Below, one piece after another: positions 1-41,242 of a stretch of 64,000 nt of DNA (position 1 is the stretch's first letter; each line of letters opens with the position of its first letter). Source of the stretch: Bryoerythrophyllum caledonicum (Eukaryota > Streptophyta > Bryopsida > Pottiales > Pottiaceae); the NCBI GenBank assembly GCA_963971425.1, contig OZ020517.1, positions 19,124,904-19,188,903 of the forward strand. The letters are read 5' to 3'. The notes below the pieces were generated by a model. The model was not told the origin of the DNA and did no database searches. It saw only the letters and a list, made by a program, of their open reading frames with translations. Both the position numbers and the translations under genes were made by a program.

Positions 1-592
1 GGTTTTTTAGGTGTAATTTCACCACCCCGTTCCATTTTTCGGTTTGGTGAAAGCAAAATATTGCTACTGGTTCACCAATCCGAGTGCCCAAGGGAATCCC
101 CATATTTTTTAGCCTTGTTTTGACTTTCTCTAACACAGCCTCCTTTCCCCATGTTTGATCACCAAGTTCAAAGTGAATTGAAACTTGGTAATCTAAAGCA
201 AAACCAACCTCATCTACCTCAACTTCACTTGGAAGTTGGGTGAGATTGAAGTGGTTGCCCAGCTTCCCATCGATTCTTTTCGAGGGCCATTCCCTTTGAG
301 GGATGAAAGGAAAAGATGGTATTGCTTCAACATTTTCAGCTGCCTCTATAGGACTTAGACCATTTTGCACTAATTCCTCTAAGGTAATCAATGGTACTTT
401 GGGGCTATCACTTTTCTTTGCAAGAGTGTTCATTGTGTTGAACCCTAACCAGTATTCGGTGTGAGGCAAACTTGTTGCCTTCACCTTTTTCTGGGAGGTA
501 CTAGCAACTGCTAACGCATTTGGAGGTATATTTACGGCACATGCATTTTCCTCAACTGCCTCTATAAACAATCTCTTAGAGGGGGTAGCCAT
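1..592 (-). CDS. LINE ORF1 protein, N-terminal part (partial)
   Basis: The frame is open from ATG at 592 to the window edge, 197 codons with no stop. It is strongly similar to residues 9-205 or so of the ORF1 of copy 2: shared blocks include PSKRLF, STSQKKVKATSLP, NHFNLTQLPSEVEV and FALDYQVSIHFELG. Because the two proteins align from PSKRLF onward, the start of ORF1 is at this ATG and at 16936 in copy 2, not further upstream. ORF1 proteins of LINEs bind element RNA and chaperone it. The RNA-binding half of this copy is outside the window. The reading frame looks undamaged here. Confidence 0.85.
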   Translation of the reverse strand, partial: MATPSKRLFIEAVEENACAVNIPPNALAVASTSQKKVKATSLPHTEYWLGFNTMNTLAKKSDSPKVPLITLEELVQNGLSPIEAAENVEAIPSFPFIPQREWPSKRIDGKLGNHFNLTQLPSEVEVDEVGFALDYQVSIHFELGDQTWGKEAVLEKVKTRLKNMGIPLGTRIGEPVAIFCFHQTEKWNGVVKLHLKN

Positions 593-2699: not shown

Positions 2700-4146
2700 G
2701 ATCTTCTTAAGTTGTGGAGTCTTCGGATCTGTTTTTCCACTAATCCTGATTGCGGCAGGTATACGTAATTCGGTGATGAGTTTTTGTTTGCCTCCTGTTT
2801 GTCTTGTTTGTATATTTCTATACTGTAGGCTGCCCATCTTGAGAGTTCTTGATTTTTCCTGATGATAAGTAGCAACATGCAGAAAATGGTTAGATTAGTG
2901 TTTAGGAAACGTACCTTAGCCATGATGGGAGTTGCGTCGTTGTTGCTGTTTGTCTTGGGTTTGGCGATGGTTTTGGTGGTTGCAGGACGTTGACATTGGT
3001 GCATTTCTTTTGTAGGTGACTTGGTGGTCTTCCTTGGGTACTGCTGCTCCCTGATTTGTACCTGGTGTACTAGTGCTGCACTTCTCGATCTGTGGTAGCT
3101 TTGTGGCTCTTTGTTATAGTGGTTAGTCATGCATAACACAACATCAGCAGTCATTAGGACCTTACCATTAAGTTTGCAGAAGCAGTATTGGGATCTGCGG
3201 ATCTGTTCTTCTTTCATTCCTGATTTTGGTAAGATCTTGTGTGTCGATGTTGAGTTTTTGTTCGCCATCTGTTTGTCCTATCTGGATATTCTTCTGCTGT
3301 TGGCTGCCCGTCTTGAGAGTTCGTGGTTTTTCCTGATGACATGTAACAGCAAGCAGAAAATGGTTAGATTAGAGTTTAGGAAACGTACCTTGGTCATGAT
3401 GGGAGTTGCATCGTTGTTGCTGTTTGTCTTGGGTTTGGCGATAGTTTCAGTGATTGCAGAGCGTTGACGTCGGTGCGTTTCTGTCGCAGGTGACTTGGTG
3501 GCCTTCTGCGGGTACTGCTGCTCCCTGCTTTGCACCTGGCGTACTAGTGTTGTTCCTCTCGACCTATGGCAGCTTTGTGGCTCTTTGTTATAAGGGTTAG
3601 TCATGCATACCACAACATCAGCAGTCCTTGGGACCTTACCACGAAGTGTGCAGAGGCGGTATTGGGATCTGCGGATCAGTTCTTCCTTCATTTTTGATGT
3701 CGGTAGGTTCATGTGTGTCAATGTTGAGTTTTTATTCGCCTCCTGCTTGTCTTGTCTGTGTATTCCTCTTCTGTTGGCTGCCCGTCTTGAGAGTTCGTGA
3801 TTTTTCCTGATGATATGTAACAGCAAGCAGAAAGTGGTTAGATTAGAGTTTTGGGAACGTACCTTGGCCATGATGGGAGTTGCGTCGTTGTTGTTGTTTG
3901 TCTTGGTCTTGTTGATGGTTTTGGTGGTTGCAGAGCGTTGACGTCGGTGCATTTCTTTTGCAGGTGGCTTGGTGGTCTTCCTCTGGTACTGTTGCTCCTT
4001 GCTTTGTACCTGGCGTACTAGTGCTGCTCTTCTCGATCTATGGTAGCTTTGAGGCTCCTTGTAATAGGGGTTAATCACGTATAACCCAGCATCAGCAGTC
4101 CCTAGCATCTTACTATCAAGTTTGCATAAGAAGTATTGAAATTTTC
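2700..4146 (-). repeat. About 474-bp tandem repeat, three units, in LINE leader
   Basis: A unit of about 474 bp is repeated three times. The phrase ACGTACCTTrGyCATGATGG recurs at about 2911, 3384 and 3859, and TAGTCATGCATAmCACAACA recurs at about 3124 and 3600. The units differ by scattered substitutions and small indels, so the array is not fresh. It lies in the 5' leader of LINE copy 1, where tandem monomers act as promoters in some other LINEs (known for mouse L1). A promoter role here is inference. On the minus strand a 328-codon open frame (4264-3278) crosses two units. Confidence 0.85.
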
Positions 4147-4661
4147 CTAAGTACAGAATACACATATGAGACTTATCTGGTCCTTGGGTTTGTTGAATCT
4201 CGTGGGCTGATCTTGTATCTTGGTGTTGGTCTTGTGCACATTGTAGGCTGGAATTGATCTTCATGTGTGTGCTTGTGTTCTGGTTGAGGAGGTGAATGGT
4301 GTGATGTTTCTAGTTGTGGTATGGTATCCCGATCTGGAACTACTTGTACATGTTTGACGTGGGTAGTGCAGGACCTAGAGCTAGATCTGGGCCAACACAG
4401 AGCCCCACTTCAGATCTACTCTCCCATACTAGTGCTAGATCCTTGCAGCCCTTTCAAACTTGTGACAGTAGATCAAGGTCTTCTAATCCCTGCCAACACT
4501 CTTACACATCCTAGAAACACCTTCTAGCAACAAAACGAGGTGCACAACGGGATTTGCACTGAGATCCAGCTTCTCTCAATGCTTTGTGCTTCGTTTCCGC
4601 CTAACACCTAAACCTCTCCTCACCAGGTTTCACGGAGCTACTCCTCTCTCATCTTCCTATC

Positions 4662-5718
4662 AAGTCCCGCTTGCCATACATTTCATCGGTGCAGAAAAAA
4701 AACCTCCTTTGGTATCCTACAATATGAATAATACAATGGCTCTACAATAAGGAGCTTATTATCACATTCAACCTACACAAATTTTGATCATATTGTAAGA
4801 TTATCAACATTACTGGTAATCACATAATTTTAAACCCTAAATTCCCAAGAGTGTCCTTGCGGGACTCTTAAAGGTTTAGGCAGGTTCCAATGGTGTCAAT
4901 TTATAATATTCTTCTTAATTGTAATTTACCGTAGATGGACATCACTAAAGACTTTGTATGAGGATAGTTTTTCTTTCTTGAATCCGACATATAATGAAAA
5001 AGTTTTGCCATCTTAAAGCAAAACGTCCTATGAATGGGCACGTCGAGCAACTCCAATTTTTTTTTTGCAAGGACATTCTATTAAATGTGAGATTTTCAAC
5101 ATTAGCTAGTAATATCATTTCCTTTCATATTGTCAAAAACAATTTATGTCTTTCATGAAAAATAGCATTATAACCCAAATCAAACATTTTCAAACAACCT
5201 ACCAAAAATACTTCTGCTTTTCCACATAAAACTTAGAGATCTTCTTATTTTAATATTTTTTCCACAACTATATGTGGTATAAACATTCTTATTGACTGTT
5301 TGGAATATCATTCAAAAAAATATTAGGTTTACAAAACAATATAACATGAATTGACACAACTTTTGTACCTCTAAAAATTGGTGTACAAGGACCTAGAATC
5401 ATGCTTAAAATGATGATGGTAATGAACTTAGACCTTGTGTAGTGCACAAATTTGACACCAAAGTCAACTGATCCACTCAACACAGGGAAGAAAATGAACC
5501 GTTTTCTCTACTTCAAACACTTAAATATTTCAATGCTTGTGGTCAAAGTTGATGAAATTTTGTGAGTAATCTACTTGAAAAGTCTTATTTGAGATCCAAC
5601 TGTCAAAAGTAGAAATACAAGGTTTTGTTTAAATCCTTACTCATTGCACTATCTAGAACGAGCATTTTTAAAGTGTTTTTGGTGTGAAAATGCCCGGGAA
5701 CTTCAGGGGTTAATACTA
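4662..5718. other. Intergenic AT-rich stretch with one dispersed repeat
   Basis: I see no gene. Around 5330-5470 the sequence resembles 26545-26710: both contain GAATTG, TACCTCTmAAAATTGG and ATGATGGyAATGAAyTTAGA in the same order, so this is a dispersed repeat of unknown type. The rest is AT-rich and unremarkable. Confidence 0.6.
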
Positions 5719-9200: not shown

Positions 9201-12200
9201 CTGAGATTCACTGCCGAGACGTTGTGAGCACCATACTCACTAAAATAGCCGGAAATATCGAGGATTCCTGTAATGTCGTTGCCGTCCAAGTACCTGATAT
9301 ACAGTATGCGTTTAAATACGTCCACAACCAGCTGAGAATCTAAACTGAAGGAAAGCACTTAAATTTAACAGAGCAGAGAATCCAAGAAGAGAGGGTAGAA
9401 GGCGACTTACAGTTCTTGAGTAGAGCCCAGGTCCGAGGCTTTCAAATTGGGTGAAAAGGGGCCTGTGAGACTGTTGTTGGAGAAAACCACCACTTTTGTT
9501 GCGGTGACATCAACAAAGTCCGATAAGTTTGTCAAGGTCCCCGTAAAGTTGTTACCGCTTAAATACCTGTAGAGAGATCCAAAACTTGATTAGAAGAACA
9601 TCAGAAGCTCCATGTGCAATGTCTATGAAGGGATTTTTGTATGGTTTTTGTGAAGTGAGACGGCTTAAGGAAATCAGTTAGAAATGAGCCTACGATATGG
9701 ATTGTTAAATCTAGCATTAAAGCACAATGTCCAATGTCCGATGCATAGACAACTCTGATTAGCAAGAGTAACATTCCTCGGTTTGTATCATTGTAGCAAG
9801 AGGTACACTCACACATAGTGTAAGTTTTTCAATTTTGTGAGATTTGGTAGTGGTCCTTGAAATTGATTCTCGGAGACATCCCTGCATTTCCAGCAGCTTA
9901 GTTAGGCCAGATTGACAACATCAGACCCATGCTAGCCAATGGCAAGAGCCGCATTCTGAGAGTTCCACTTTTAGACCTTGAAACATAGGTTGTACAAGAA
10001 AATCATAATTTAGGATAGCGTCTCAAGCCGATGTCTAAAGCTCACGTAAGATTCAAACATAATAGCACCTAGTTGAAACTAATTGTGAAGTTCATAAGGT
10101 TGAGTATGTTGAGACATACAAGTACACCAACTCAAAATTCGTAGAAAGATTAGGCAACATGCCCTCAAAGCGATTGTGGGATACGTCACTGCAGGGTACG
10201 AAGAAAATGTCAATATTCATTCACAAGTGCGCAACAAAAGAAAGTCTGATGCATAATATCTAGGTGGAGAATTTTACAAAACATTGGGTAGGAGTAGTTG
10301 GAACAGAAATCAACACAAGTTGTCATTACTCCAGAAGTAAAATGAAAGCATTAACGGGTGACATCAATTTGAGGTACAATGTATGGTCAACGGCCTGCCT
10401 TACATTTTCTGTAGATTTGTCTTCTCTGCAAAAGCGTGTCCTTCGATAACCCCGAAAAACTTGTTTCTACCAATGTTGAATGATTGAAGAGAGTTATTCG
10501 CTAGCTTAAACTGTTCAAATGGATACATCCCAGTGATCTCGTTACCACTCAGATCTCTGTCCAATGGTCACAAAATAATATTAGTTCATTGCAAGATGCT
10601 TGACAATGTAGGGCTTCAACTGCCCAATTTTCTTTAAAGCTTATATAGAGACTCACATGTACTGTAGAGTGTAAGGAAAGGCCAAATCTTTCGGAATGGT
10701 CCCACTGAAAGCATTGTCATGGAGATCCCTGCGAAACATCAAGAAGTAGTACATGAAGGTTTGCGCACAAATGGTCTACATTATCACATTAACATTTATT
10801 CTGGAGTGATTCATTCGCCATGTCTTTCTTGATTAAACCAATAACTCTACATTGTCACCATTAAAAGCAAGATTGCACTGTAGTCTGCTCTACTTACAAA
10901 ACATAGAGCGATGCAGATCCAAGCGAGCTGGGAAGGGGACCCGTGAGATTTGGATTTCCTATCAATTTCCTGCACATCATATGTGTCCACACAAATCGTT
11001 GAATGAGAAAACCCATTTCTCCTATTTTAGTTCCATGGATCTTGCCCAGTTTTGTGAAATGCAATATACACAAGAGGTGGAGTACCCCCCACTCCGTTCT
11101 TTTAAGCCGAATGGGGTCTGAAATCACATTATATGGAGAAAGGAACAACACAAAAAGATTGAGAAATAGAATGTAAGGTCAAATTTAATCTCAACGGTAC
11201 CAAATTGATACAGAATTTCAAAGCTCAAGGCGTCGAGCATACACACAATTCAGTCACCAAGTTACTTAACATCGAAGTACTTACAAGGTGCTCAGACTCT
11301 TGAGATACTCTGAATTTGCAACGTTTGAAAACACATCCGGTAAAGTGCCAACAATCGACACATTCGAAAGGGACCTGTCCAGCATTTTGATCCAGATGGC
11401 AACTTAGTAAAACGATCAGACTTCCATCAGCCGCGGATGGATCATTCATGATGGATGTGCCAATCTACCTCTAGAAATGTAGGAAAACGGTAATGAAGAT
11501 TTGAACGGACCGATAGAACTGAGTTCGAAAATCCAAGACGGAATGTAAACAAACACTAAGGAGATCGAGGAGGGATGATTCTTACAAGCCAATAATAGTG
11601 ATCAATCGTGCAGGAGCGCTTGGAGCGCTTAGAGGGGGTGCGATCGGACTACTAGGGTAATCCGCACATCTTGTGATCTGACGACATCCACGTCGGTACC
11701 GTGTGAGGTTCACAAAAGTGCACGCCACTCCTCGCCAGGACCCTGCAGCACTGTGACAAGGGTATATCTGCGACGAGCTCCAGCCTGCAAAGTTGCTGCT
11801 TACATCCGGAGTGCTTGAATTCCATGCGCTCCACAGGCTTTGGAGCGCGTTCACTGCGACGGACGTCGTGAACACAAAACATGTAAGTACGACCTATACC
11901 AACGATCAAACAAACTAGACTTCAACAGTACATAAAACTCTGCACGGTGGGATAAACTATGCACGGTGGGAAGATTCAGATGAAATTGACCACCGCGCAG
12001 CTGCACTCCCGATTTCTAGATACTTGAAGAATCATGTGACCGGCACCCATCTGGATTCTCATACACTCACATGTACGTATGTGCGCTTGAGAACATAGCG
12101 AGTCCACCAGTCCGAGACCTGTACCAGGCTGACGCCTGACCATAGCCTGGAATTTGGAAACATCATATTACAAGCTCCCAGTCCCGGGGAGGAACTGGAA

Positions 12201-12449
12201 GCTCAGATCGACCATGCTACAAGCAACTGTAGTTCAAAGCAGACACGTACGCTCAGAGTCGTCATACGCATTCAGCAGATCGGCGGTGCCCGCGCATGTC
12301 ACAAAGTACGTGCGCAGAAGGAGCTGCAAGAGTAGGGCGAGCCCAATGAGTTTCCCGACCGGCGAATGGCGTCGCAGCTGTGGCCATTGTCGCCTCACGC
12401 CCTGCAGTGGTGCGGCCACGCCGCGAGCTCCTCCACAGCTCGACTTCAT
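6263..12449 (-). CDS. LRR receptor-like Ser/Thr kinase RLK1 (17 exons, 884 aa)
   Basis: Exons (minus): 12251-12449, 11586-11853, 11285-11374, 10898-10969, 10657-10728, 10404-10556, 10120-10188, 9813-9881, 9411-9566, 9120-9293, 8858-8964, 8507-8659, 8232-8350, 7871-8084, 7457-7691, 7058-7208, 6263-6616. All joins keep frame at GT/AG sites. The order is an Arg-rich N-terminus and hydrophobic signal segment (about residues 34-45), an LRRNT cap (ALQSLWSAW...SWRGVAC), LRRs one per 69-72-bp exon or in fused exons, a Cys-rich exon ([10 protein letters not shown]), a transmembrane helix, and a kinase with [24 protein letters not shown] and APE. This is an RD kinase of the LRR-VIII-like type, acting at the plasma membrane; its ligand is unknown. 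I start at MKSSC; an in-frame ATG at 12620 would add 57 residues. It looks intact and pairs with RLK2. Confidence 0.88.
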
Positions 12450-13264
12450 GAGAGCAGGTGCTGGATCTGGGGATGAGCAAGTTCGAAGCTGACTCGAGCC
12501 GCGCAAGAATGGAGCGCCCCCGCATTGCATCCTGCACTTGCAACAGAATGAGCTGGGGCCATCATCGGATAACAGCGAACTGGTCTTGGCCAAACACTTG
12601 GGTTCCAGAATTGGGCTCAAGCCTCACACTGTACAGACTAACCTTAATAATACCACACCCTCTGTTTCAGTAAAAAGTGTGATGTAAGCAAGGTGTGGCA
12701 TAGTATCACATTTGGAGGATTTATGCAAAATACAAAATGCAAAATACAGTTTAATACAAACTCAAAATGAAAATCAAAATAATTGTGCAAAATCAAAATC
12801 AAAATATTTATGCAAAATACAGTTTAATAAAGGAATAACAGAATCAAAATCAAAATAACGAACTCCCTCATCAAATCGCCTTCATTTTGCAAGTAATCAT
12901 CCTGAAAAAAGTATTAAAAACGAATAAGCAAACATAGGTACAGAAACTAACCAGCAAAAAAAATTGAACTCACCAGCATAGAACATGACTTCTGGTCATC
13001 AACATTGATGGCTTTTGTAAACATGAAATGTGGTCATCCGTAAACATGAAATTTGGTCTTGATGACAGCGACAACCTCTAACCATCCTTCACCTAAAATC
13101 GGCAGTCTGTAGTGAATGTATAGATTGTGTCAAATCCTAATGCCGGCGTGGTGCCTACCACCATAGTCCACCCAATTATGGTGGGGTCCCAAGGTCTCGT
13201 TGTATGGGGACCCACAAAGCCCGTGAGGGAGATGACATGTTGGTTGTCTCTAAGGCAATTAGTG
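12450..13264. other. Intergenic: RLK1 upstream region and A-rich tract
   Basis: From 12450 to about 12640 the sequence is nearly identical, inverted, to the region just upstream of RLK2 (27375-27564), so the duplication includes the upstream region. Positions 12720-12860 are a degenerate A-rich simple repeat built on CAAAATCAAAAT. I see no gene. Confidence 0.6.
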
Positions 13265-13445
13265 TAGGGAAGCACTTAGTGTAGAAAAGTGTTTACCCTC
13301 GAGAGGGGGGAGTAGTTCTATGACACTAGCCTATGTCCCGTGGCCATATGCTTAGTGAAGAGAATGAACAAACACTGTATTCACGCCCGTCTCCTTTGGA
13401 GATTGGAGTTCTTCTTCTGTAGATCGTGAATATCTTTTGAGGCAA
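13265..13445 (+). mobile_element. LINE 3'-end remnant
   Basis: This matches the 3' tail of LINE copy 2 (26145-26279). Both run GTGT..ACCCTCGA, a purine-rich block ending in AGTAGTT, a TGCCC-type block, CTTAGTG, GAATGAAC, TTCACGCC and a GC hairpin ending in GTTCTTCTT. The upstream part of the element is absent, as expected for a 5'-truncated insertion. Three such tails occur in this window. Confidence 0.75.
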
Positions 13446-13999: not shown

Positions 14000-14011
14000 T
14001 AGTGAACTTGA

Positions 14012-16935
14012 GAGGGGAAATGAGAGAGGAGTAGCTCCGCGTTTTCTGGTGAGGAGGGACTTGGGTGTTAGGCGCAAACGAGGGAAACAAGGACTTTGAG
14101 AGCTGCTGGGCCTCATTGTAGATCCCGCTTTGTGCACTCTCTTTGTTGCTTGTGGATTTTAGCATTGCACAGAATGTTGGAAGGGATCAAAGCTCTAGAT
14201 CTGGTTGATTTTGCAGTAGAATAGGTGGTGCATCAAACTTGGGACAAGGGCTGGCGAGAATCTGAAGCGAGCTTGGTGTTGGAACAGTCCTAGATTTGGT
14301 TTGGCAAACACCCATTCTCAGACTGTAAACACCAGATCTAGATCTCAGTTACCAGGCAATGCTCAAACCTCTATACACCCAAGTCCCCCATGCCGGAGTC
14401 GACCACAACAGCATGCACAACACACAACACAAGTACCCAAGAGACAGAGGCGAGTGCGACACAAAACCAGGTAAGTTATCCTTACTCTCTTGTTACTTCG
14501 CATTGTTTCACAGATGCTTCCATGGATTAGATGGTAGGATTACCGGCACTAGAAAAATTAGTATTCAGGGTACTATCGAAACAAGTTTCGCAATGTTCAG
14601 TAACGCTACCAACAACATCAACCACACCGACAACATCGTCAGCAAGATTCGTGTAAGAACAGTGACGAAACAAAGAAACACACACTATGGGATATGCACG
14701 ACAAGACCAAAGAGCGAGTTTTTCGAGATCATCTACAGCAGCTGCTCCAGCTCACAACACTGGACGTCCAAGAAAAGACAAGACATGATCAGACTGAAGT
14801 ACTACCGTCTCGAGCCCAACAGTAGCAGAGACGTCAACTCCAGGCGCTACAAGTTGAAGAGTCCGTACGACCAACTCAGGCTACAACAACGGAGATCTGG
14901 AGCTCCCAGAATAGCGGCGGAGGGAAAAAATGGAGAGAAAGGCGAGTCATGGACAACAGCTCAGGAGCGCGGAGTGTATGGTACCACCGGGACAGGAGAT
15001 GTGAGCACTTGGAGCTGCAGCCTCATGACCCTCCCCACCAACACTAATCAAGGGATCCTAGGAGAAGTCAGTAGAGAAGACGTAGCAGCAACAAGAACAA
15101 CAACATGTGCAGTAGCAGTAGAGGTGGATTCAGCAGTAGCAGCAACGATAAGAAGAGAAGTTGCCACAACAACGGCGACAGGAGTAGCGGCAGCAACCTT
15201 CCGACTTCAGACCTCGACAGACTGGAGTAGAACAAGAAACACAAGAGCATGCTGCCAACGGCTACTGCAACACAATCGACAAGCTGCATCGCAACGGCGC
15301 CATGAAGAAGCCAACCCTAAACGCCCAAAAGCCCTAAATCAAAGACATTCATCAACGACAACTACATCCATCGAACATCAACTCAATACCAGGTATATAT
15401 TGCGCCCTCACTCCATTCTAAAACCCTCTTACATTGCCCTTCTGTGCAGACACCCACCTTATGCGCTGTGGTACCAGCATATCATCTGCTCAGTACTTGT
15501 AGAAGTTATAGACCTGCGAGAGGACGTGCAGCACCAACGAAGGAGTGTATCGCCACTTCCACGTCCAACCTGGACACATCTCAACAGTGAAGAGCAGTCC
15601 CTCCCCTTCTTCACAAACTTATCGTTTTCTATTTGGTTTGCTTGTAAACAGTTCCACACTAACTTGTTACTGGCATGCTCCTTGCAGAAAGTTCGTATCA
15701 GAATCTACACGCAAGAACTGGAGACAACAACCTACGCATGCAAGATCTGGAGGCAGCAACCTGTGCACACGAGTTCTGCAGACGGCAACCTGCGCGCGCA
15801 GAAAGTCAGAGCATGCGAACGCTCCCTGCCCGAACTCGTTCTCATTGAAGCCCTACCCGAAGCTCTGCCCGATTACACACAACGCAACTGGTTCGAGATC
15901 CTGCCGGAAGCCCTGCTCGCAAGCCCAGCTGAACGCCGAATCTACCACGACGTCACCTACAGCTCGCCGACAATCCCTGTTCGACGTCGAATCGTGCTCA
16001 TCACCGAATCTAACTTCCGCCAACAACTTGCTGATTACAGTAAGTGGACAACCAGACGCAGTCAGCCGACATCCACAGTCACTCGTGGACTGACGTCACT
16101 CACCAAGAGCACCGGCAGTCGAACCAGCTATCAACGGTCCAACTGCAGTGAGCGGACGGTCGGAGGCAGCAAGCCGACGTCTATAGAAACTCGTAGACAG
16201 GTGTCGCCAGTCAAGCACACTAGCAGTCCAGCCGCAAGGTACCACTTAAGTGCACCAGCAGTCCAGCCCCGCAGGGTATCAGCCCCGACCCTTCGATCAC
16301 CAGTCTGGCACCCTAGCACTGCCGGCCAGGTCCTGCAGCGTATTCCCGAGAAAAGTCCCGGCGAGGTCCCTGCGAGCTGGTTACCATTCTGGTACTCCAG
16401 TGACGTACTGCTCCAGAAGCGCACCCCCAAAACCAGAAGACTCAGGCATGCAGCTGGAGAGGTGAACGGGGCGTACAATAGAAGATCAGAGCTAAAGACA
16501 AGCCAGAGTCACGCAACCTCGAGGTGGACACTAGGTATAACTATACATCCAGGTCATACCTCCTTTACACCCTCTATTGTTCTGTGCCATCATTGGGATT
16601 ATTGTGAAACCCCATGGGCATGCACACAACTTTTAATATCTAAACCAGTTACTTTAAGAGGTGGCCAATTTTTTGGCACCTCTCGTGTGTGTGTATATGT
16701 AGCAAGTAAACATCATAACTCTCACCACTCTCATCTTCAAACTTTAGGAAGTAGAAGTCAGCTATATCATTTGCATGTCTTATATATTGCTATCTTCTGC
16801 CCCTTCTTGAACATCCTTACATCAACAAGCCCTCAATGTACGTTGAGGGGAGATGTTAAGGACAAGAAGGTAAGTAGAAAACTTGAAGTAACACTCTATA
16901 GCTTATCTAGAAATACTCTTTTCTATCTCTATAGC
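14012..16935 (+). other. LINE copy 2 leader with long stop-free frame
   Basis: The first 300 bases match the start of copy 1, and about 16560-16935 matches the leader just before ORF1 of copy 1. From ATG at 14359 to ORF1 at 16936 the ORF1 frame has no stop, 859 codons. The translation (rich in Arg, Thr, Ser, Gln) shows no domain I recognise. Low T content lowers the chance of stops, but 859 clean codons is still striking. It contains a strong splice-donor-like site, CAGGTAAGT, at about 14469. It could be an N-terminal ORF1 extension or simply a leader. Confidence 0.6.
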
Positions 16936-18516
16936 ATGTCTCAACAAACTACTGCTACCCCGTCCAAGCGTCTATTTGTTGAGGTGATAGAAAACTCCAA
17001 TCTTTTGAATGTAACTAGAAATGTCTTGGGCGTTACAAGTTCCACCCAGAAAAAGGTGAAGGCAACAAGTTTGCCTTCCACCAAATACTGGTTGGGCTTC
17101 CAAACAATGAATAGCATTGCAAGGAAAAATGGGGAAGAAAAGGTGCCTGTAGTTACCATAGAAGAAATGGTAGAATATGGGTTAAATGAGAAAGAAGCAT
17201 GTGAGAGTGTTGAGGCAATGCCAGCATTCCCATTTGTCTTCCAAGAGGAATGGCCCTCGAAACGTGCTGATGGAAAGGAAGGGAACCACTTCAATCTCAC
17301 CCAACTTCCAAGTGAAGTTGAGGTGAATGAAGATGGCTTTGCCTTGGACTATCAAGTCTCCATTCATTTTGAATTAGGAAACCAGGTATGGACAAAACAC
17401 GTGGTACTAGACATGGTTAAGACAAGACTGAAAGAGATGGGGATACCTACAGGGACAGGCATTGGTGAACCAATTGCCATTTTTTGCCATCACCAATCCG
17501 ACAATTGGACTGGTGTGGTGAAACTCCATCTAAAGAACCCGGATATAGATGCTAAAGGCCTATTGCAAGGGAAAAGGCCTTTCATCCTCATTTTGGATGA
17601 AGGGATTCCACATCAAGGAAAAGTATGCAAGACGTACGATTCCTTGGCCTTCTCACATCTCTTATCGGTAAAAATAACAAGTCCTAGCCTTGTCAACATA
17701 GAATCATACCAATTGCATGCGGAAATCGTGAGAGACAGTTTTGCAAGGGGTTATGATTTCGAGATCACCGGAGTGGAAAAAAAGGGTTCGTCAGAATTTG
17801 CATGGGTCAAAACCCCCTCCCCGGAACAAGCTGCTAAAATAAAGGACTACAAAGTCTCATTTCATAATGAGATTTTTGTGCCCGTTTTTGCAACCCGGAA
17901 AATGGATGAGGATGAGATTGCAAAGAAGAACTGCCTAATCCTCATTGCAAAAAACCTTAACAAAACAAAAAACGAAAAAGAACTTGAGGAGGGGATAAAA
18001 TCCATTCTTGGGGAGGAAAATGTAGTGAACACATTTTTCAAGCTTGAATACGGTAGACATGTAGGGACATGTAATATTGAATGTCTAAATGCGGCTGTTT
18101 ACAAAAAATTTGTTAAACAAAGTAAAAAACTACACGGAAAATATATTATGTTTACCCCTCACCCAAAAAGCCTAGATGGAAGCAACAAACCCAGCACGGA
18201 AGAACTAACGAGATTAGGTTTTACGGACGTGAACGCGGCTATAGCTAATGCGGTAATTGCCATGGAGAATGGGCCAATCAAAGGCAACGGTGTTACCTTA
18301 CAACAACTCCGAAGAGAAATGAAGACCATGAAAGGAGAGATCGTAGAAGAGGCAAGACAATATGCGGATATGATACAAGCGAACACGGTCAAATCCTTGA
18401 GAGGAGAAATGTCAACCCTCCGGTCTCAACTCATTGCAACCATCATGGCGGCGGAAACACAAGCAACGGAACGAGAACAACGAGCTATTGAGAATAAAAT
18501 GGATACGACAAACTAA
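16936..18516 (+). CDS. LINE ORF1: RNA-binding protein (526 aa)
   Basis: Presumed RNA-binding/chaperone protein of the LINE ribonucleoprotein. The start at 16936 (MSQQTTATPSKRLF) is supported by the aligned ORF1 of copy 1, which begins at the equivalent place. The middle third is well conserved between copies (NHFNLTQLPSEVEV, GEPIAIFCHHQ). The segment from CLILIAKNL through GRHVGTCNIECLN looks like an RRM fold with an RNP2-like and a weaker RNP1-like strand, and the C-terminus (QLRREMKTMKGEIVEEARQ onward) is a predicted coiled coil, typical for trimerisation. It ends in tandem stops TAA TAG. The RRM reading is inference from pattern. Confidence 0.85.
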   Translation: MSQQTTATPSKRLFVEVIENSNLLNVTRNVLGVTSSTQKKVKATSLPSTKYWLGFQTMNSIARKNGEEKVPVVTIEEMVEYGLNEKEACESVEAMPAFPFVFQEEWPSKRADGKEGNHFNLTQLPSEVEVNEDGFALDYQVSIHFELGNQVWTKHVVLDMVKTRLKEMGIPTGTGIGEPIAIFCHHQSDNWTGVVKLHLKNPDIDAKGLLQGKRPFILILDEGIPHQGKVCKTYDSLAFSHLLSVKITSPSLVNIESYQLHAEIVRDSFARGYDFEITGVEKKGSSEFAWVKTPSPEQAAKIKDYKVSFHNEIFVPVFATRKMDEDEIAKKNCLILIAKNLNKTKNEKELEEGIKSILGEENVVNTFFKLEYGRHVGTCNIECLNAAVYKKFVKQSKKLHGKYIMFTPHPKSLDGSNKPSTEELTRLGFTDVNAAIANAVIAMENGPIKGNGVTLQQLRREMKTMKGEIVEEARQYADMIQANTVKSLRGEMSTLRSQLIATIMAAETQATEREQRAIENKMDTTN

Positions 18517-18606
18517 TAGCGTCAAACAACGCTACAACTAGAGAAAACAATAGAGTATATTTATATACTAAAATATACCAAAAAAAAAAAAACAAATCAA
18601 AAACTA

Positions 18607-18646
18607 ATATATATACTATATATATATAGTATATATATATACTACT
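18607..18646. repeat. AT-rich palindrome between ORF1 and ORF2
   Basis: ATATATACTATATATATATAG runs into its inverse TATATATATAC, giving a strong AT hairpin about 90 bases after the ORF1 stop. It may be neutral simple sequence or affect translation between the ORFs; nothing shows which. Confidence 0.7.
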
Positions 18647-18674
18647 AAACAAATCAAAAACAAAATAAAACTCA

Positions 18675-18924
<250 letters not shown>

Positions 18925-18957
18925 TCCACAATAATAACTATAAACACCAATTATTAT

Positions 18958-19005
18958 AAACTATTAATCGCACTTTGTGGAGACATAGAAACGAACCCTG
19001 GCCCA
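18958..19005 (+). other. 2A-like ribosome-skipping peptide at ORF2 N-terminus
   Basis: The frame reads KLLIALCGDIETNPGP. It matches the 2A consensus D-(V/I)-E-x-N-P-G-P exactly, with a Leu-rich stretch and Gly before the Asp as in functional 2As. In 2A peptides the ribosome fails to join the Gly (codon 19000-19002) to the following Pro (19003-19005) and releases the upstream product. 2A-like sequences at the ORF2 N-terminus are known for trypanosome L1Tc-type and some animal non-LTR elements. An ATG (MPNVF) follows directly, so it could also serve as a plain start. Activity is untested. Confidence 0.85.
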
Positions 19006-22000
19006 ATGCCTAATGTCTTCCGAAACCACCCAAAAATACACAAAAGATTATCAAAAACATATTTTATTCCGAATACTATAAAACTTCATCCCGAATATCA
19101 ACACCTAGCATCTTCGTTTGCACCACTCCTAAATGATAATCATACTCTCCATCAAAACTATTCCACCCTCTACCCCAGCATCGCCCGCTACATACACCAA
19201 AAAAAAACACAACCACCCATCCTCACATATATTATTCGCCATAATTACCACCCTCCACCCTTCTATAGATGAATGCAACAATATCACCAATCAACATTCT
19301 ACCAACACAAACCCAACACATTGGACAAATATACTACTAAACACCTTATCCTCTCTACATAATCCCCCCAAAAGACATATAGATACACTCCACCCATACA
19401 CCAAATTCTTAGAAGAAAACCAACACCTCCTCGAACACAAAACCTCTCTACACAGTGACCTATATAACTTTATTCATAGCCAAACCCCACCCCCTTCCTC
19501 CGGTGAAATACAACTAAAATTTCCCTACTTCCCAAAGAATCTTATTCTGGAAGCTCTTAAATGCTTTGAACCAATCCATGCTTACACACACCCCACCCCG
19601 ACACCCGCCCATATTTCCCCTACACTTTGTAACCATGACAATATAGACAACAGAAGCACATATATAACTACATGGAACGCCTCAACGTTAAACACTGCTT
19701 TACCTTGCATCCACAATCTAACCGCCCACACCAACACACCACCCGCCATAATTGCCATACAAGAAACTAAACTAACAGCCACTAAATCCACAAAATACAT
19801 CCAAAAGACATTCCCCGACTATAAACTTATATTTAATAACACCCACTCTCTCACACGATGCATCCAACAACGAAGACCATATACACCGGCTAGAGGAGGT
19901 CTACTCATGCTCATACACCAAACATATGCCTTCCCCGGAAATATTACAAAAATCCCCACCCCGGCTAATATATCACCATATCTTCAAATTATTGAAATTA
20001 CTAACCGACCCCTTCAACCATGGCTCATTCTTCACCTATATATGCCCTCACATATAGAAGACTCGAGACTTATCCCGGAAATCCAAAACTCCATCACTTC
20101 ACAAATAAATACACACACTAACCATACAATAATACTCTGTGGAGACTTTAACCGAGATATCGCCCTTATTGGACGACAAAACGGAGGGGTTACTACCCCC
20201 CCAATGGACATAGACTATCAATGGTGAAATTATACGGATAACCTAGAGTTATATCTAATCCCAACCAACACACAATACTCCCGTCAAGGTGGACATAATT
20301 ATACACACACTAGCCTAATTGATGGATTTTACATTAAAACACCTAACCACACAAGTTATGCATCTACCACAAATACCACAACCAAATTAAACTCGGACCA
20401 CTTCCCAATCCAACTCAATATACCTCACAACACCCTTATTAGTAGACCTCCCATAACCATCAACTCAAATGATACTAAAATACTAAACCCCATCCCAAAA
20501 GAAAACCTTCATAAATTTAATACAATATTCTTTGAAAAAAACTCACTAAAAATAGACTCCCTCACTGATACTCTCTCTAACCACCAACACCTCACACACA
20601 TACAATGGCAAGAAGCCTGTACAACTCTTGATAAACTTATTAACGAAATTTCTATTATATTAGAAAAAACCTGTAAAGCGCCCCCGATTCCACAACTCAC
20701 ACCTCGAACCTCAAAACAAGGGGGGTATCTCCCGAGAAAACTAGCCAAAAAGTGGAAACAACATCTTGTCACATACCACACTATTCGTAAAATAATTTAC
20801 ATTGCCAAAACTAACCAAAACTGGCAAACCCACCCCATACTCTCCGAGATACAAAACCTACGATACAACCAAATCCCACAAATACCTCCACCCAACACCC
20901 CCCAGGAAGAATGGTTAGAAGACATTGCAAATATCGCAAAAACTGCCAACAAAGATGCTCGGAAAATTACTACAAAATACGCAAGAGAATGTGTCAAAAA
21001 GCCATTTCTAAGTATCGTCAAATGTACGAAACTAGCCCAAAAAAGATTAATAGGAAAGTCTTTAAAAATAATACAAATCTGCCACTAGACTGTATTTTAG
21101 ATCAAAATAATAACATTTTAACCAGCCCAGATGACATTGCAAACGAAATACATCGTCAACAATCTATAAATAACAGTCCATCCACCCCCCCATGCCACTT
21201 CCAACCACAACATACATCAACATGCACGTGCGGAGTTAGACAATACCCATGGCATGATTTGGATGGGTTTACCATTGATAGAAGAGGCGAACCGACAACA
21301 CCCCTTCACACATACTATAACAGAGACACATACAATATGTGCCTAAAAAATTTGGGAACCAACAAAGCCCCCGGACCAGACCACATACCTAATTCAATTC
21401 TAAAAAACATGCCTCCAAGATTCCATGACCTCCTATCATTATTCTTCCTTCATTGTTACAAACAAAAATCCATTCCCGCATCTTGGAAAACGAGTCTAAC
21501 AATCTTATTATACAAAAAAGGCAACCCATCCGTGCTACCCAACCACCGACCTATTGCCTTAGCCAACACCATTTACAAGTTATATACTAGCACATTAACA
21601 TCAATATTATCGGCCTATGGGGAAAAACACCAAATACTACACGAAAGCCAAGAAGGGTTTAGAGCCGAGAGAAGTACCACCCGACAACTTCAAACCATCA
21701 TAGCAGCTCTCGAGGATGCAAAATTCACCAATAAAGACATTTACATACTCTACATTGACTTTAAAAACGCATTTGGCTCCATTGACCACCCTCGATTGCT
21801 AGCCGTTATGAGTGATCTTGGATACCCGGAAGACGCAATCACATTGATTGGCAATATATACTCCCACTCTACCACTATATACACTGGAGAATTTTTTGGT
21901 AAAACACGCCCAATCCCCATCCAACGTGGTACTATCCAAGGCGATACATTGAGCCCATACCTCTTTATCATTTTTCTAGAACCTCTACTAAGATGGCTAC

Positions 22001-25000
22001 AAAGAGGGAATAATGGCTACACATTTGGCACCTCAGAAACAACCGTAAACTCGGCCGCATATGCCGACGATCTAGCGGCCATCTCCAGTCGTCTTAAATC
22101 ACTCCAAATTCAATTAGACAAAATAGACAAATTTTGTCTGTGGACCGGAATGGAACTTGGGGTCCAGAAGTGTGCTGTAACTGGATGCCCAAACAAATCT
22201 AAAATAAATCCGACCGCCTTCAAAGCCCTTATTCAAGCTACCAACATCCACTATCGTAACCAACCAATTCCGGTTCTTAACCAAAACCAACCCTACATAT
22301 ACCTTGGAATAAACCTAATCCCATCGTTAAAATGGAAAACTCAAATTCACGCTACTACAACAAAACTTATTAAACAATGCAAAGAACTTACACTATGTCC
22401 GGTAACATTGCAACAAAAAATAAAAATGATTGATACAGTCATACGTCCGGGTATCTCATACAGTTTCTATGCAGTCCCTTATTCCATGCCCGCCATAAAT
22501 AAACTTGATAAAAAAATCATAGCCATACAAAAGAAAGTATGCGGACTCCCTAATTGTACGCCTAATGTCATAACACAACTCCCACACGAACTATTTGGAT
22601 TAGAAGCTTTCTCCCTCAAAAATGCCTATCTACGCTGCATTGGAGAACAACTCCAGAATGCACTTAACGATAAAGGACGACTAGGACAAATTTACAGTGG
22701 ACTCCTTCGGCACATCCTTGCCATTTATAGAGGAGCACAACACCTCCAAAGACTTAAAAAATCTGATTGTCTTCGGTCCCCCATTACCCGCACACTTTTC
22801 CTACTCAAAACAGAAGGTCAAATATTTCTAAAAAGCACACTAGAAGATTTCCTACTAGACCCCGCACCGCTTGAACAAAACTGGGCAAATGAAATACATA
22901 ACCTCCCTAGACTTGACCGACATTTATCCGCCAAACTCCTACAAAAACTTTTCTCTGCTAACATTACTGATCTAAAACAAATTACACTACCAAATGGAAC
23001 ACACCTCATGGACGATAGGAGCTACAAAACATCATATGGTACCCCCCATAAATTAATAAAAAGTGCACTAAATATTGCTAAACAATTATTTTGTCACCCC
23101 CCATGTCTCCATACATGCCCCAACCCTTGCACCACTCACGCCCCACCGTACACACTTAAAGACTCATACATCATCAATCACAATGACATCCACCCCAACA
23201 CCAATCCCCCATTAATCCCTCCAAACCCGCCACATCCACGACCATATGCCCCTCCACCACACATATTAAAAAATCCCTCCATACACCCAATAAACAACAT
23301 ATCTGCGCACAGACATAGTAAATACATTGACTCCAACAAAATAAGGAGACAATATACGTCGTACCTATGCCATTGGTCCCACAACAACAACACCTACGCC
23401 AAATGGCTCCCACAAAGAAATCTTTTCCCTTGGCACAACCCAAATACTTCCTTACATAACACTGAAATCCTCACACAATACTACCTTAGAACTCAAAACA
23501 GTTATTACCTAAATATCATACAAATACACCACCCCCAAACACAACCTCGAGATAGAAGATTTGTCATGCCACCTCTTATTATCCCCCTTCTCAACATCTT
23601 TACAACTGAATGCAACCCAGAAATGGACATCCGAGCACAAACAAATAAAATCAAAATACAACAAGACAATGCCCACATATACGAAGGGAATGGTAGACAT
23701 CTAATAACCATACCACTCGCTAGACTACAATGGTTGTGGAATCAATATCACAACGCACTACAAACCCCCATCAACATTGAACCAATGCCCCAAACATTCG
23801 AAACCGAAATTGTTTGGCTATACCAAAGATATAAATACCGAATACCCAAAAATGACCCCCTTAAAAATGCTCACTACACATTACCAGATCCTATCTTAGA
23901 CTACCTCATTACATCAATGAATATCACACATTCATACTTCTCATCCCCCGTTACATGTTCCACAAAAATCTCAAAATTCTACTCTCCATTCGAACGAGAT
24001 ACGATTTTTGGTTCTCTTGGAAAAGCTTTTAATTACAAGTGGAGTGGAATAGGCCTTGCACACCCTCACAACGAAGAAGAAACACAACAAGCAATACATT
24101 GGGCACGCCTAGCGGCAAATAATGACCCCAACAACAACATCACCATTATTATCACTCCCGACACTCATTGGTATCATAACCCTAACCCACACTTAGGCCC
24201 ATTCCCGGACTCCCACATCATAGCACTATTTGAAGCGGACTCTATGACATACAAAGAACCCACTATACCACCGCAAATACAAGCACCTCGCCTTGAACCG
24301 GCAACCCTACGTATCCTATGCATACACCAACAAACTCGTGAAATAGGTACTCTAGACAACCTCACTCATCTCACTTTGCTAGCAAATAATCTAAACATCA
24401 ACAATGTATACACCGCAATTGCTTCTCCCACACCCATGTCAACCCATGTAAATCGCAACAAAAAATGGTCTAAAACCCCCCACACAAACATCTCCACATC
24501 ACAAATTACCGAATTGAGCCTCCCCCTCTCCTACTACCAAACCAATACAGACCTTAGATTTGACCCCAACTTCAGCTACTACACTGACGGCTCTTTCAAA
24601 GAACCAACCGAAGTAAGCCCGGGACACTGGCACCGAGAGAAAGCCGGTTATGGGATATACAATTCCACCAAACAAATTAAACTAGGTAAAAGACTACATG
24701 GACTCCAAAATATTCTTAGAGCCGAAATGATGGCTATACACAAAACCCTTAAAATAATCACCACACAATACCCAAACGAACCGGCTCACATTTTTACAGA
24801 TTGTATAAATGTATTATATCTCCTTAATACACATATTAAACACCCCACTTTACACAATAGTCACCCGGATAAAACTATCCTTACATCTATGGTTGAAATG
24901 CTCCAAAACCGTACACAGATTACTACACTCCATAAAGTCCGTGCCCATGCTAATATCGACGGTAATGAACAAGCCGACAAACTAGCAAAGGAAGGAAGAG

Positions 25001-26043
25001 AAAAAACCCACAAGAATGCCGAACACCCATACAAACACGCCCATGCCACCCCGTACTACTTCCATAGATATGAATGGCCCTCTATGGGTGAAACTCCCGA
25101 TAAAGGCCCCATACGATTCTTGGACAAATACCTCAAAAAACATGATCTTGTAAATAACCTAGAAAAACTTACAGAAAACTTCCCCAATATTAATAAATGG
25201 ACTGGCAACCCAAACATTCATAACGTATTATCCAATAATTTCTGGAAAAACCCCATTATAACGGATCCACAAATCACATGCCTAATCAAATTCCGCACCG
25301 GACAATACATGGGCAACGCCCGCAAACAACTCTTCTTTGGAATAGAAAGATTCCCTACAATTACATGTCCAATTTGCAACACCACGGATCCAGACACATG
25401 GCTACATATCTTACTCAAGTGCCAAAACCCACATATACACTCACTAATTGTCAAAAGACATAACAAAGCCGTATGGGCTATTCGTAAACTACTCATATCA
25501 TCAACCAAATCCCGGTGTTTCATTCTCATGAATGCCGGAACCTTTAATAACAATCCACAAGAAAATACGGTCCCTCCGTGGCTATTACCATGCATATGTC
25601 AAACTCAAAGATGCCATTGTAATGCAAAATTCAAACCGGACCTACTATGTGTTAGAGGACTTTCATACACAGACCCCCCACCAAACCACATAGACCCTAG
25701 TCTCACCATCCAGTTTATCGAATTCACATATTGCAATGATAGATTCTCTCCGGACACTATTGCAAACAAAACAACTAAATACCAACCACTACTTGACGAT
25801 ATTCAAGCACTAGGATGGAAAGTAGACCCCCTCATTGTCATCACCGCGGGTGCTAGAGCCACCACCTTCATCCCCTCAATGACAACCCTCGAAGAAACAT
25901 TTAAAATCCCCATTACTTCAATCAAAACCACCTTTTCTAACATTAACATTATTGCAATTCAACATGCTATGTCAATACTCCTACATAAACGTAAACTTGA
26001 AAACAACCAACCCTTACCCGACGCTTCGAACCCCCCTTTATAG
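18958..26043 (+). pseudogene. LINE ORF2: APE endonuclease, RT, RNase H (disrupted)
   Basis: The frame continues from the 2A motif, shifts at an A-run near 19199-19207, carries a TGA stop at 20225-20227 inside the endonuclease, and shifts again at an A-run near 21000. It is then open for 1,700 codons to 26043. Domains: APE-type endonuclease (TWNAS, QETK, GDFNRD, SDHFPI; about 19670-20420), reverse transcriptase (YIDFKNAFGS, QGDTLSPYLF, AYADDLA; about 21330-22200), RNase H I (YYTDGSF, AEMMAI, FTDC, GNEQADKLAKEG; about 24575-25000), and a Cys/His motif (CPIC...H...C; about 25368-25425). A C-terminal module around IEFTYCNDRF is unassigned. It copies element RNA at a nicked target. Both frameshifts sit in homopolymers, so sequencing error should be excluded. 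Confidence 0.88.
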
Positions 26044-26279
26044 ATCTATACCTGCATTTGCATTTTCACCGCACTCGCCCTCCCTCTTCTTGGGACTTTT
26101 TGGGACCTAGGGTCCTTCTTATATTGGTTACTTGTTACTGGGTACATAGTGTCCACCCTCGAAAGGGGGAAGTAGTTTCACACTACTAAACCATGCCCGG
26201 TGGGCATGGACTTAGTGGTGGAATGAACGGACACTTCACTCACGCCGGCCCCCTCCGGGGACCGGCGTTCTTCTTTCTT
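26044..26279 (+). other. LINE copy 2 structured 3' tail
   Basis: This 236-bp 3' untranslated end holds several short hairpins: GGGACCTAGGGTCC, ATGCCCGGTGGGCAT and GCCGGCCCCCTCCGGGGACCGGC. It ends in TTCTTTCTT directly before the target-site duplication, with no poly(A). Two further diverged tails of the same type lie at 13265-13445 and 26292-26440, with the hairpin arms partly preserved. Structured tails recognised by their own reverse transcriptase are known for poly(A)-independent LINEs. That role is inferred here. Confidence 0.75.
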
Positions 26280-27163: not shown

Positions 27164-27564
27164 TGAAGTCAATGAAATGACTATCTCCTGGCGCTTCGTC
27201 TCTCTCCGCGTTGGCTCTTTTTTCTTTTCAATCAATCGCTTTTGATTTGTGCCAAAAACAAATTAAAAAAAATAAATTCTTATCAGGTCCGACAAAACAG
27301 ATGAAGGCATGCAAAGCGGACCCAGACAACTTTCAGAAATCGTCTATTGTAGGAAGAGAAAGGTGTACTGTACAGTACAGTACAGAGTGAGGCTTGAGCC
27401 CAATTCTGGAACCCAAGTGTTTGGCCAAGACCAGTTCGCTGACACCCGATGATGGCCCCAGCTCATTCTGTTGCAAGTGCAGGATGCAATGCCGGGGCGC
27501 TCCATTCTTGCGCGGCTCGAGTCAGCTTCGAACTTGCTCATCCCCAGATCCAGCACCTGCTCTC
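27164..27564. other. RLK2 upstream region
   Basis: No separate gene. From 27375 the sequence matches the RLK1 upstream region in inverted orientation and could include coding sequence if translation starts at the in-frame ATG at 27394. A short GTACAGTACAGTACAG repeat at 27368-27384 sits where homology with the RLK1 side stops, at the edge of the duplicated block. Confidence 0.6.
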
Positions 27565-29609
27565 ATGAAGTCGAGCTGTGGAGGAGCTCGCGGCGTGGCT
27601 GCGCCACTGCAGGGCGTGAGGCGACAATGGCCACAGCTGCGACGCCATTCGCCGGTCGGGAAACTCATTGGGCTCGCCCTACTCTTGCAGCTCCTTCTGC
27701 GCACGGACTTTGCGACATGCGCGGGCGACGCCGATCTGCTGAATGCGTATGACGACTATGAGCGTACGTGTCTACTTTGAACTACAGTTGCTTGTACCAT
27801 GGTCGATCTGAGCTTCCAGTTCCTCCTCGAGACTGGGAGCTTGTAATATGATATTTCCGAATTCCAGGCTATGGTCAGGCGTCAGCCTGGTACAGGTCTC
27901 GGACTAGTGGACTCGCTATGTTCTCAAGCGCACATACGTACATGTGAGTGTATGAGAATCCAGATGGGTGCCGGTCATATGATTCTTCAAGTTTCTAGAA
28001 ATCGGGATAGTGCAGCTGCGCGGTGGTCAATTACATCTGAATCATCCCTCCGTGCAGAGTTTCATGTACTGTTGAAGTCTAGTTTGTTTGATTGTTGCTA
28101 GAGGTCGTACTTATATGTTTTGTGTTCACGACGTCCGTCGCAGTGAACGCGCTCCAAAGCCTGTGGAGCGCATGGAATTCAAGCACTCCGGATGTAAGCA
28201 GCAACTTGGCAGGCTGGAGCTCTTCGCAGATATACCCTTGTCACAGTGCTGCAGGGTCGTGGCGAGGAGTGACGTGCACAGTTGTCAACAGCTCTGCAGC
28301 CGTGGATGAGTGTACTTCAATCACAAGATGTGCGAGGGGTTACAGGAGGCTTCTCCAAACTCGGACCCGGAAGCGTCGAAGCTATTACCGCACTTCAGCG
28401 CTCACTGTTATTGGCTTGTAAGGATCACGTGTCTTTCTCCACTATTTAGTTTTTGGTTGTTTTGTATACTTCAGCAACAGTATTCCTGGAGGGATTGTAT
28501 CATAACTATATCTATTTTCTTTCAAGTATATAGAGACCTCCTTCACAGTCTTCATGATCGGCATCCGGTTAATGAACAGGCATCCCTTGTTGGAATGACG
28601 ACAACAGAGATGAACTCGCTGGCCAAAGGCTGCTAACAAGTTGGAGAAAGTTTCATTCCGGGAAGTAGTGGAATCAAATCTTGGTTAGACTTGATCTGTA
28701 AAATATCAGCGGATGTTTTATGCTAGTACTGGTACATTGTTAGTAATTTGTTACTTCATAGTTCAATTTCTTCCATTTAGTGAATGTAATGTACCATTCA
28801 TACTTGTAACCAGAGCTGAACAAATTTGTAGTTTTCGTTATGTTCACAGTAGATGTATTTTGAGGGAGAGTATTTTGAAAGGATGACTATCACAAACTGG
28901 TGGACTCATCATTGTGCTAAGTTACCGTCTGAAAAAAAATTGTGGACAGGTCCCTCTCCAATGCGTCGATTGTTGGCACGTTACCGGATGTGTTTCAGGA
29001 CAGCAATAATTCACAAGACCTCATGGGTCTGAGCACCTTGTAAGTACTTCGACATTTAACTCCATTGTATAATTGTGACATGTTATTTTGTTTACGTTGC
29101 AATTGAAAAATTATGGGTTTGTGTAATATGTATTCTGTGCAAGGTGCATGGAACTGAAACAGGACTGAAAGCTAGTGATGTCATATTGGTTACAATAGCC
29201 AATCAATTTCTGTTATTTGGCCACTGATATAGTCTGACTGGGGATTACTTTCCATAGGTTTTTGCATTTGAACTCAATTAGTGTAACTCCGATACCAACC
29301 AAGATTGTCCAATTAACCAGTAACGATTACTTTTCTAATCAAATGGTTTGTATGAAAAATTATGTGTTTTGTAGGGAATTGACCGGAAATCCAAATCTCA
29401 CCGGGCCTCTCCCCAGCTCGCTTGCATCCACATTTCTTTATGTCCTGTAAGTATAAGAGAGTATGATGCGTGCTTTGATTCACAGTGGGTAGACTAGTAG
29501 ATTTATTATAGAAGTATCTGATCATTAAGTCATCTACAGTATTACTTGGTGTACTTGATGTGATTATTCATACCAATTTTGAATACATTTATGTGCTTTC
29601 TCATTTACC

Positions 29610-41070: not shown

Positions 41071-41242
41071 CGCGAGGTGGTGTGTGCCTATGGCTCTAGT
41101 GGGGGATTCCTAAAAAGCTGACGTCACTCCGGCCGCTCAATCTCTTGGTAATAAAGTCTTCTGTCTAAACAACTGTAGTGCAGATTCGGAGTGTGTCAGA
41201 AAAATGAACAGTGAAACGAATTGTGCTTTCTAGGAATATGAG

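Follow-up and report, generated by a model that had tools for sequence, protein, structure and literature searches.

The use of 2A peptides by LINEs is already known from trypanosomes and animals. The trypanosome non-LTR elements L1Tc and Ingi reportedly carry a 2A; both are one-ORF elements, with the 2A at the start of a protein comprising endonuclease, reverse transcriptase (RT) and RNase H. A 2A is also said to be present in animal APE-type non-LTR elements of the Rex1, Crack, L2 and CR1 clades, in which it goes with loss of ORF1 and in which RNase H is absent. The LINE family described here was met in a 64,000-nucleotide stretch of moss DNA, the whole of which is called the window. Like L1Tc and Ingi, it has a 2A heading an endonuclease-RT-RNase H protein, and with the animal elements it shares an APE-type endonuclease and the position of the 2A close to the N-terminus of ORF2. 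It differs from L1Tc and Ingi in that ORF1 is present, that a leader in the -1 frame joins ORF1 to the 2A and that the host belongs to the green lineage, and from the animal clades in having both ORF1 and RNase H. The single-ORF state, which reportedly accompanies the 2A in Ingi/L1Tc, CR1, L2 and Rex1, is not what was found: similarity to ORF1 lies 5' of the 2A in 17 of 20 loci picked by the motif.

Comparable devices occur elsewhere. Viral StopGo, as described in PMC12846837, has the same core octapeptide and a leucine-rich upstream context, whereas the sequence here belongs to a retrotransposon. StopGo works in plants, and the large virus survey in the same source found no natural use of it among plant viruses; the present family would, if our reading is true, be a natural and large-scale use in the green lineage. 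N-terminal 2A sequences of the sea urchin are active in plant cells and, like the present one, stand at a protein N-terminus, but they belong to immune receptor genes and have no upstream ORF (PMC4981915). Cardioviruses also combine StopGo with a -1 shift; there, according to PMC5009743, ribosomes are diverted by a shift immediately downstream of StopGo, whereas here the -1 step lies upstream and would lead into the 2A. Frameshifting is described in the non-LTR elements HeT-A and TART (PMC5009743), and recoding or re-initiation in LINE expression is a likeness that these and SART1 and L1 (PMC5972666) share with the present family; the passages on them in the two sources report neither a 2A nor a long open leader.

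A literature search, with most subscription-journal papers outside it, returned no description of a green-lineage LINE with a 2A, nor of a 2A preceded by a -1 leader. What appears to be new here is that, in well-kept copies, the 2A and ORF2 lie in frame -1 to ORF1 with an open leader between. We think it likely that, in this high-copy green-lineage LINE family, the 2A (StopGo) frees the ORF2 enzyme after a -1 leader read from the ORF1 end. To a fuller version we give an even chance: two recodings would be chained on one mRNA, a -1 frameshift at the ORF1 end and then StopGo 130 to ~1,085 codons on, with the leader selected only for openness. How a LINE produces ORF2 from the second position of its mRNA is poorly known outside a few animals, and such a two-step scheme (shift, then skip) would, if true, be a new route of ORF2 expression for LINEs; a single genome would moreover hold thousands of natural variants of the 2A and its entry site.

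The window element and its 2A

Positions 18958-19005 of the forward strand read KLLIALCGDIETNPGP, followed directly by an ATG (19006-19008), which bears out the sequence-only reading that an exact 2A consensus stands at the ORF2 N-terminus with an ATG at once after it. DIETNPGP matches the StopGo/2A core (D/G/C/N)(V/I)ExNPGP; NPGP is encoded by 18994-19005, and the expected skip point, predicted from the sequence, is 19002/19003. Upstream of the core, LLIALCG is leucine-rich with (A/S/C)G before D12, in a by-eye comparison with the leucine-rich upstream classes of StopGo described in PMC12846837. In the 2A frame the nearest upstream stop is at 18691-18693, with no in-frame ATG between it and the 2A; the (CAA)n tract reads as polyGln in this frame, and the codon-usage signal of the frame begins at ~18880, i.e., already 5' of the ATG.

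The motif had also been placed upstream of an APE-type endonuclease, and a match to this family does begin ~665 nt 3' of the 2A, at a score just under the curated cut-off (Table 1). An APE endonuclease and a non-LTR RT, the two marks of an APE-type LINE, are thus both present, the former with that reservation as to score; the best solved relatives of the RT are R2 and L1 ORF2. It is confirmed that the motif stands where ORF2 of this LINE, encoding endonuclease, RT and RNase H, begins, and we infer from the sequence that ribosomes would skip there. Also lying inside ORF2 is a match to PCIF1_WW, a cap-adenine methyltransferase family.

Table 1. Features of the element and of its related neighbour, in window positions
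Feature	Position	Strand	Basis or remark
Second related copy, cut by window edge	1-4665	minus	ORF1 end at G000:C4:19123930 (L101)
5' block, likely near element 5' end	14006..14202	+	Common to inverted second copy 4665-4470, 74%
ORF1 open frame, 1,395 codons	14329..18516	+	First in-frame ATG 14359
-1-frame leader remnant (NGYDKLIASNNATTRENNRVYLYT...), stop-interrupted in window copy	18498..18626	+	Sequence
ORF1 end, GACAAAC then TAA; supposed -1 step site	18507..18516	+	Comparison of copies
Small hairpin TAGCGT-caaaca-ACGCTA, adjoining ORF1 stop	18517..18534	+	Weak support
(CAA)n tract	18673-18923	+	Stop-free in all three forward frames
2A element KLLIALCGDIETNPG/P	18958..19005	+	Sequence, conservation
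ORF2, 2A Pro to stop; two frame changes and one stop	19003..26043	+	ORF map, codon usage
APE-type endonuclease match	19670..20158	+	PF03372, 23 bits, just below curated 24.5
Reverse transcriptase	21523..22314	+	RVT_1, PF00078, 101.7 bits
PCIF1_WW match between RT and RNase H	23776..24162	+	37.5 bits, E 2e-9
RNase H	24574..24999	+	RNase_H, 49.5 bits

The part of ORF1 that can be recognised is probably only a fraction of its full length. The conserved part starts from the ATG at 16936 and comprises 526 aa, and the 869 codons 5' of it (14329-16935) contain no stop in the ORF1 frame vs 36 in each of the other forward frames; the second window copy is open over 1,092 aa in ORF1, and ORF1 matches elsewhere lie in open frames of 1,240-1,813 aa among the best 150 of each search. 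The window element itself is a decayed copy from a LINE family with many members. Its ORF2 is frame-broken, codon usage following the 2A frame at ~18880-19180, the next frame at ~19180-21000 and the first frame again from ~21040, an in-frame stop lies at 20225-20227, and its 2A is in frame 0 relative to ORF1.

The plant lineage that had been read from the letters agrees with 18 SBP domain matches and rbcL on three contigs, which mark the host as photosynthetic and of the green lineage, SPL genes being plant-specific according to PMC10796333; the 14 control genomes beside these searches were prokaryotes as far as named, and are little informative.

Could the motif be a chance match, or peculiar to a single copy? 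The broken frame of the window copy would suit this explanation. Base composition, however, leads to an expectation of 6e-5 strict D[VI]ExNPGP per window, and in 60 first-order Markov windows NPGP came up 0.65 times per window and the core octamer never; the 64-kb window has a single NPGP in all its six frames. The coding pattern of the 2A has 1,624 exact matches (827 + 797) in the window's own genome (437,360,962 bases, or 437 Mb, in 894 contigs), as opposed to none for the reversed-pattern control, and the motif is kept in copies picked without it. A chance or copy-specific match was rejected on these grounds and deserves practically no credence.

Conservation of the motif across the family

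About 100 first places of the 1,624 pattern matches were listed, and the first 20 were fetched, hence picked by the motif. All 20 read GDIE(T/K)NPGPMPN. The endonuclease starts 674-825 nt 3' of the 2A and is in the 2A frame in 16/20, the RT is present in the fetched stretch in 18/20, and in L024, L034 and L036 the frame from the 2A is open through endonuclease and RT to the end of that stretch. In L024, L035 and L036, no ORF1 turned up in the 5.5 kb before the 2A. The copies fall into group I, window-like with ...MPNVF.NHPK..., and group II, with ...MPN(I/V)LKRHP...; the two are ~67-80% identical in the endonuclease and ~30-45% in ORF1.

Further copies were picked by similarity to the endonuclease or the ORF1 end and not by the motif. 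Among endonuclease matches, 93 of the best 150 of 3,366 entered for group I (mainly same-score near-identical ones were dropped) and 40 were drawn; for group II, 57 of the best 150 of 3,375 entered and 18 were drawn. Among ORF1 ends, 97 of the best 150 of 2,568 entered for group I (87 as one per bit score) and 40 were drawn; for group II, 51 of the best 150 of 2,536 entered, 5/14 and 15/37 were drawn, and one of these 20 was dropped as no stop was found in it (n=19). Because the scored matches are the 150 best of more than 2,500 candidates, well-kept copies are over-represented. L041-L046 and L147-L148 were hand-chosen for long open frames or a visible ORF1 partner; L041-L044 are near-identical, so that counts including them are not wholly independent.

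The sequence-only reading would have been undermined by relatives in which the motif is missing or stands in another frame. The core is kept in 30 of the 40 group I copies picked by endonuclease and in 16 of the 18 of group II (each drawn among the best 150), which, with the shared frame of 2A and endonuclease noted above, upholds it. The remaining ten of group I comprise seven with changed core residues (L050, L053, L062, L078, L080, L084, L086), one cut by the stretch edge in which DIETNPGP is readable (L047), one without a match (L075) and one not anchored (L069). Within group I, the core has a pN/pS of 0.091, as against 0.405 in the preceding 12 codons, 0.180 in MPN and 0.139 in the following 28 codons (37/40 rows alignable, three dropped as not anchored); between the groups the corresponding values are 0.088, 0.440, 0.072 and 0.283. 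The low value in the core and the higher one in the codons before it indicate that selection preserves the amino acids of the core, although the codons that encode them vary.

This bears on an explanation in which the ATG next to the 2A is the ordinary start codon of ORF2, and the 2A is either a remnant or an N-terminal peptide conserved for some other function. The ATG adjoins the 2A in the window, MPN is conserved, and the window copy is without an in-frame AUG 5' of the 2A, all of which would be expected of such a start. Against this, the core is more constrained than its flanks on both sides, MPN is not invariant (MTN in L041-L044, MPI in L079), and a relic would not keep the ~1,080 upstream codons open that are described below. 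We therefore hold a start at this ATG to be quite improbable, and release of ORF2 by the 2A remains our preferred reading.

The same genome contains a young group I burst (L041-L044 and others) of ~30 places with equal endonuclease scores (402.7 or 402.5 bits) and 95-97% identity, many with open stretches of more than 2,500 aa in the ORF2 frame. In group II, such a stretch reaches 3,764 aa (among the best 150 of 3,375) vs ~2,347 codons of ORF2 from the 2A. Beyond this genome, no relatives of the RT were confirmed in viral_contigs or genome_contigs, and a plasmid tblastn with the RT region gave only four weak matches at 25% identity; the 2A pattern was met in 12 contigs of viral_contigs, by eye inside other long ORFs and in none at a LINE ORF2 start.

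The -1 leader between ORF1 and the 2A

Well-kept copies have the 2A and ORF2 shifted by -1 relative to ORF1. In the ORF1-end samples (from the best 150 each), at least 100 codons beyond the ORF1 stop are free of stops in the -1 frame in 26/40 copies of group I and 18/19 of group II, as against none for the other two frames. Stops within these 100 codons number 46 in -1 vs 262 and 187 in the other frames of group I, and 1 vs 118 and 139 in group II. At 20 codons the +1 frame is open too in 9/40 and 15/19, respectively, so that the contrast between frames arises over the longer distance. Group I copies resemble one another where the -1 peptide begins (..GHVKLIASNNA..VYIYT..). L108, a sister of the window element (98% in the ORF1 end), is open in -1 to the end of the fetched stretch, and the second window copy for the 110 codons fetched.

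Does the open frame extend all the way to the 2A? The complete leader was available for ten group I copies with the 2A in -1, and eight of them have no stop in -1 over leaders of 130-395 codons, with 6-33 and 2-13 stops in the other two frames; L026 and L045 have one -1 stop each between the ORF1 stop and the 2A. The eight stop-free leaders are rich in Gln/Asn/Thr, and in L027 a single open frame begins ahead of the ORF1 stop, crosses the 2A and extends deep into ORF2. Two hand-chosen group II copies, L147 and L148, have 1,085 and 1,069 codons between ORF1 end and 2A without a single -1 stop, the other frames having 113/122 and 110/118. At that stop rate the ln chance of each open run is ~ -120, a crude figure, as repeats make the codons dependent and the two copies are 98% alike.

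L147 and L148 differ by three gaps, all multiples of three, and by substitutions spread evenly over codon positions (18, 28, 22); no amino-acid selection on the leader was seen in this comparison. The even spread in a stop-free frame points to the open frame being kept and not the peptide, and a leader selected for an open frame but not for its sequence is a curiosity of its own. It speaks against the reading that in group I only 156/323 leader gaps are multiples of three, vs 13/14 in group II. The (CAA)n tract of the window fits selection for an open leader, because it has no stop in any forward frame. An open frame 5' of a 2A heading ORF2 makes sense if ribosomes arrive from ORF1 and the 2A frees ORF2. 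The suggestion of a joint translation of ORF1 and ORF2 by way of the 2A finds support, in a form that had not been foreseen: the connection would run through a leader in the -1 frame that starts where ORF1 ends.

Also against the reading, the -1 arrangement is no longer present in the window copy and in a number of older ones. In L023 the 2A is in +1 to ORF1, and in L037 the two are fused by deletion. The older group II copies L032, L033, L034, L038 and L040 have the 2A in frames 0, +1, -1, +1 and -1, respectively; none is continuous from ORF1 to the 2A, and only two have it in -1.

The leaders of L147, L148 and L024 contain a decayed tandem 2A (GDMETNPRPMPN...) 5' of the intact one, the leader still being open, as if older 2A-bearing N-termini had been absorbed into it.

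Proposed entry into the -1 frame at the ORF1 end

Group I ORF1 ends in ...(NNG) TCA AAC TAA/TAG, with GTCAAAC before the stop in 35/40 of the copies picked by the ORF1 end; in group II, CAAAC lies within 9 nt of the stop in 17/19, mostly as CAAACATGTGA. ORF1 and the -1 frame share at least 7 nt in group I and at least 10 nt in group II, and CAAAC is the unit common to both groups. A -1 ORF that overlaps the ORF1 end and runs past its stop, a feature of programmed -1 frameshifting, is thus present. The usual ORF1 end, G_UCA_AAC, is not a canonical X_XXY_YYZ slippery heptamer; that of L045 is G_UUA_AAC, which we take to be a heptamer of the equine arteritis virus type. The 6-bp hairpin after the ORF1 stop is complete in 30/40 copies with almost no double changes, and the case for it as a frameshift stimulator is weak.

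Ribosomes might instead terminate at the end of ORF1 and re-initiate in the -1 leader, in which case the 2A would be active and the released piece would be leader-2A alone. SART1 and L1 are examples of such ORF1-ORF2 coupling (PMC5972666), and four group II copies (L127-L129, L131) have a -1 AUG at the ORF1 stop, as AUG-dependent termination-reinitiation would have it. However, a -1 AUG within the overlap plus three codons is found in only 2/26 (group I) and 4/18 (group II) open copies, L022 and L046 have no AUG anywhere in the leader, and the first leader AUG of L147 and L148 is at codon 45. Re-initiation as the way into the leader is on balance rather unlikely, and an AUG-started form of it is unlikely in most copies. 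Since the -1 AUG is rare or absent, frameshifting at NCAAAC is preferred, and we infer that entry into -1 would more probably be by frameshift than by non-AUG re-initiation.

An outline of the frameshifting course would be as follows. Ribosomes would translate ORF1, and at the conserved NCAAAC just 5' of its stop a fraction of them would enter the -1 frame. These would read the leader, 130-395 codons in the eight group I copies and 1,069-1,085 in the two of group II, which presumably stays stop-free and drifts otherwise. At the leucine-rich 2A that ends the leader, the Gly-Pro bond would not be formed and a leader-2A product, with ORF1 attached to it, would be released; translation would then continue into ORF2 with the N-terminus Pro-Met-Pro-Asn.

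The surroundings of the window element contain further repeats. An inverted pair of ~1 kb, 92% identical, flanks it on both sides (11663-12634 and 27380-28334). The stretches at 13288-13416, 5' of the element, and 26148-26275, after ORF2, are 72% identical and perhaps represent the 3' end of another family member. A Copia-type LTR retrotransposon polyprotein lies on the minus strand at 36724-41109 as an open frame of 1,461 aa.
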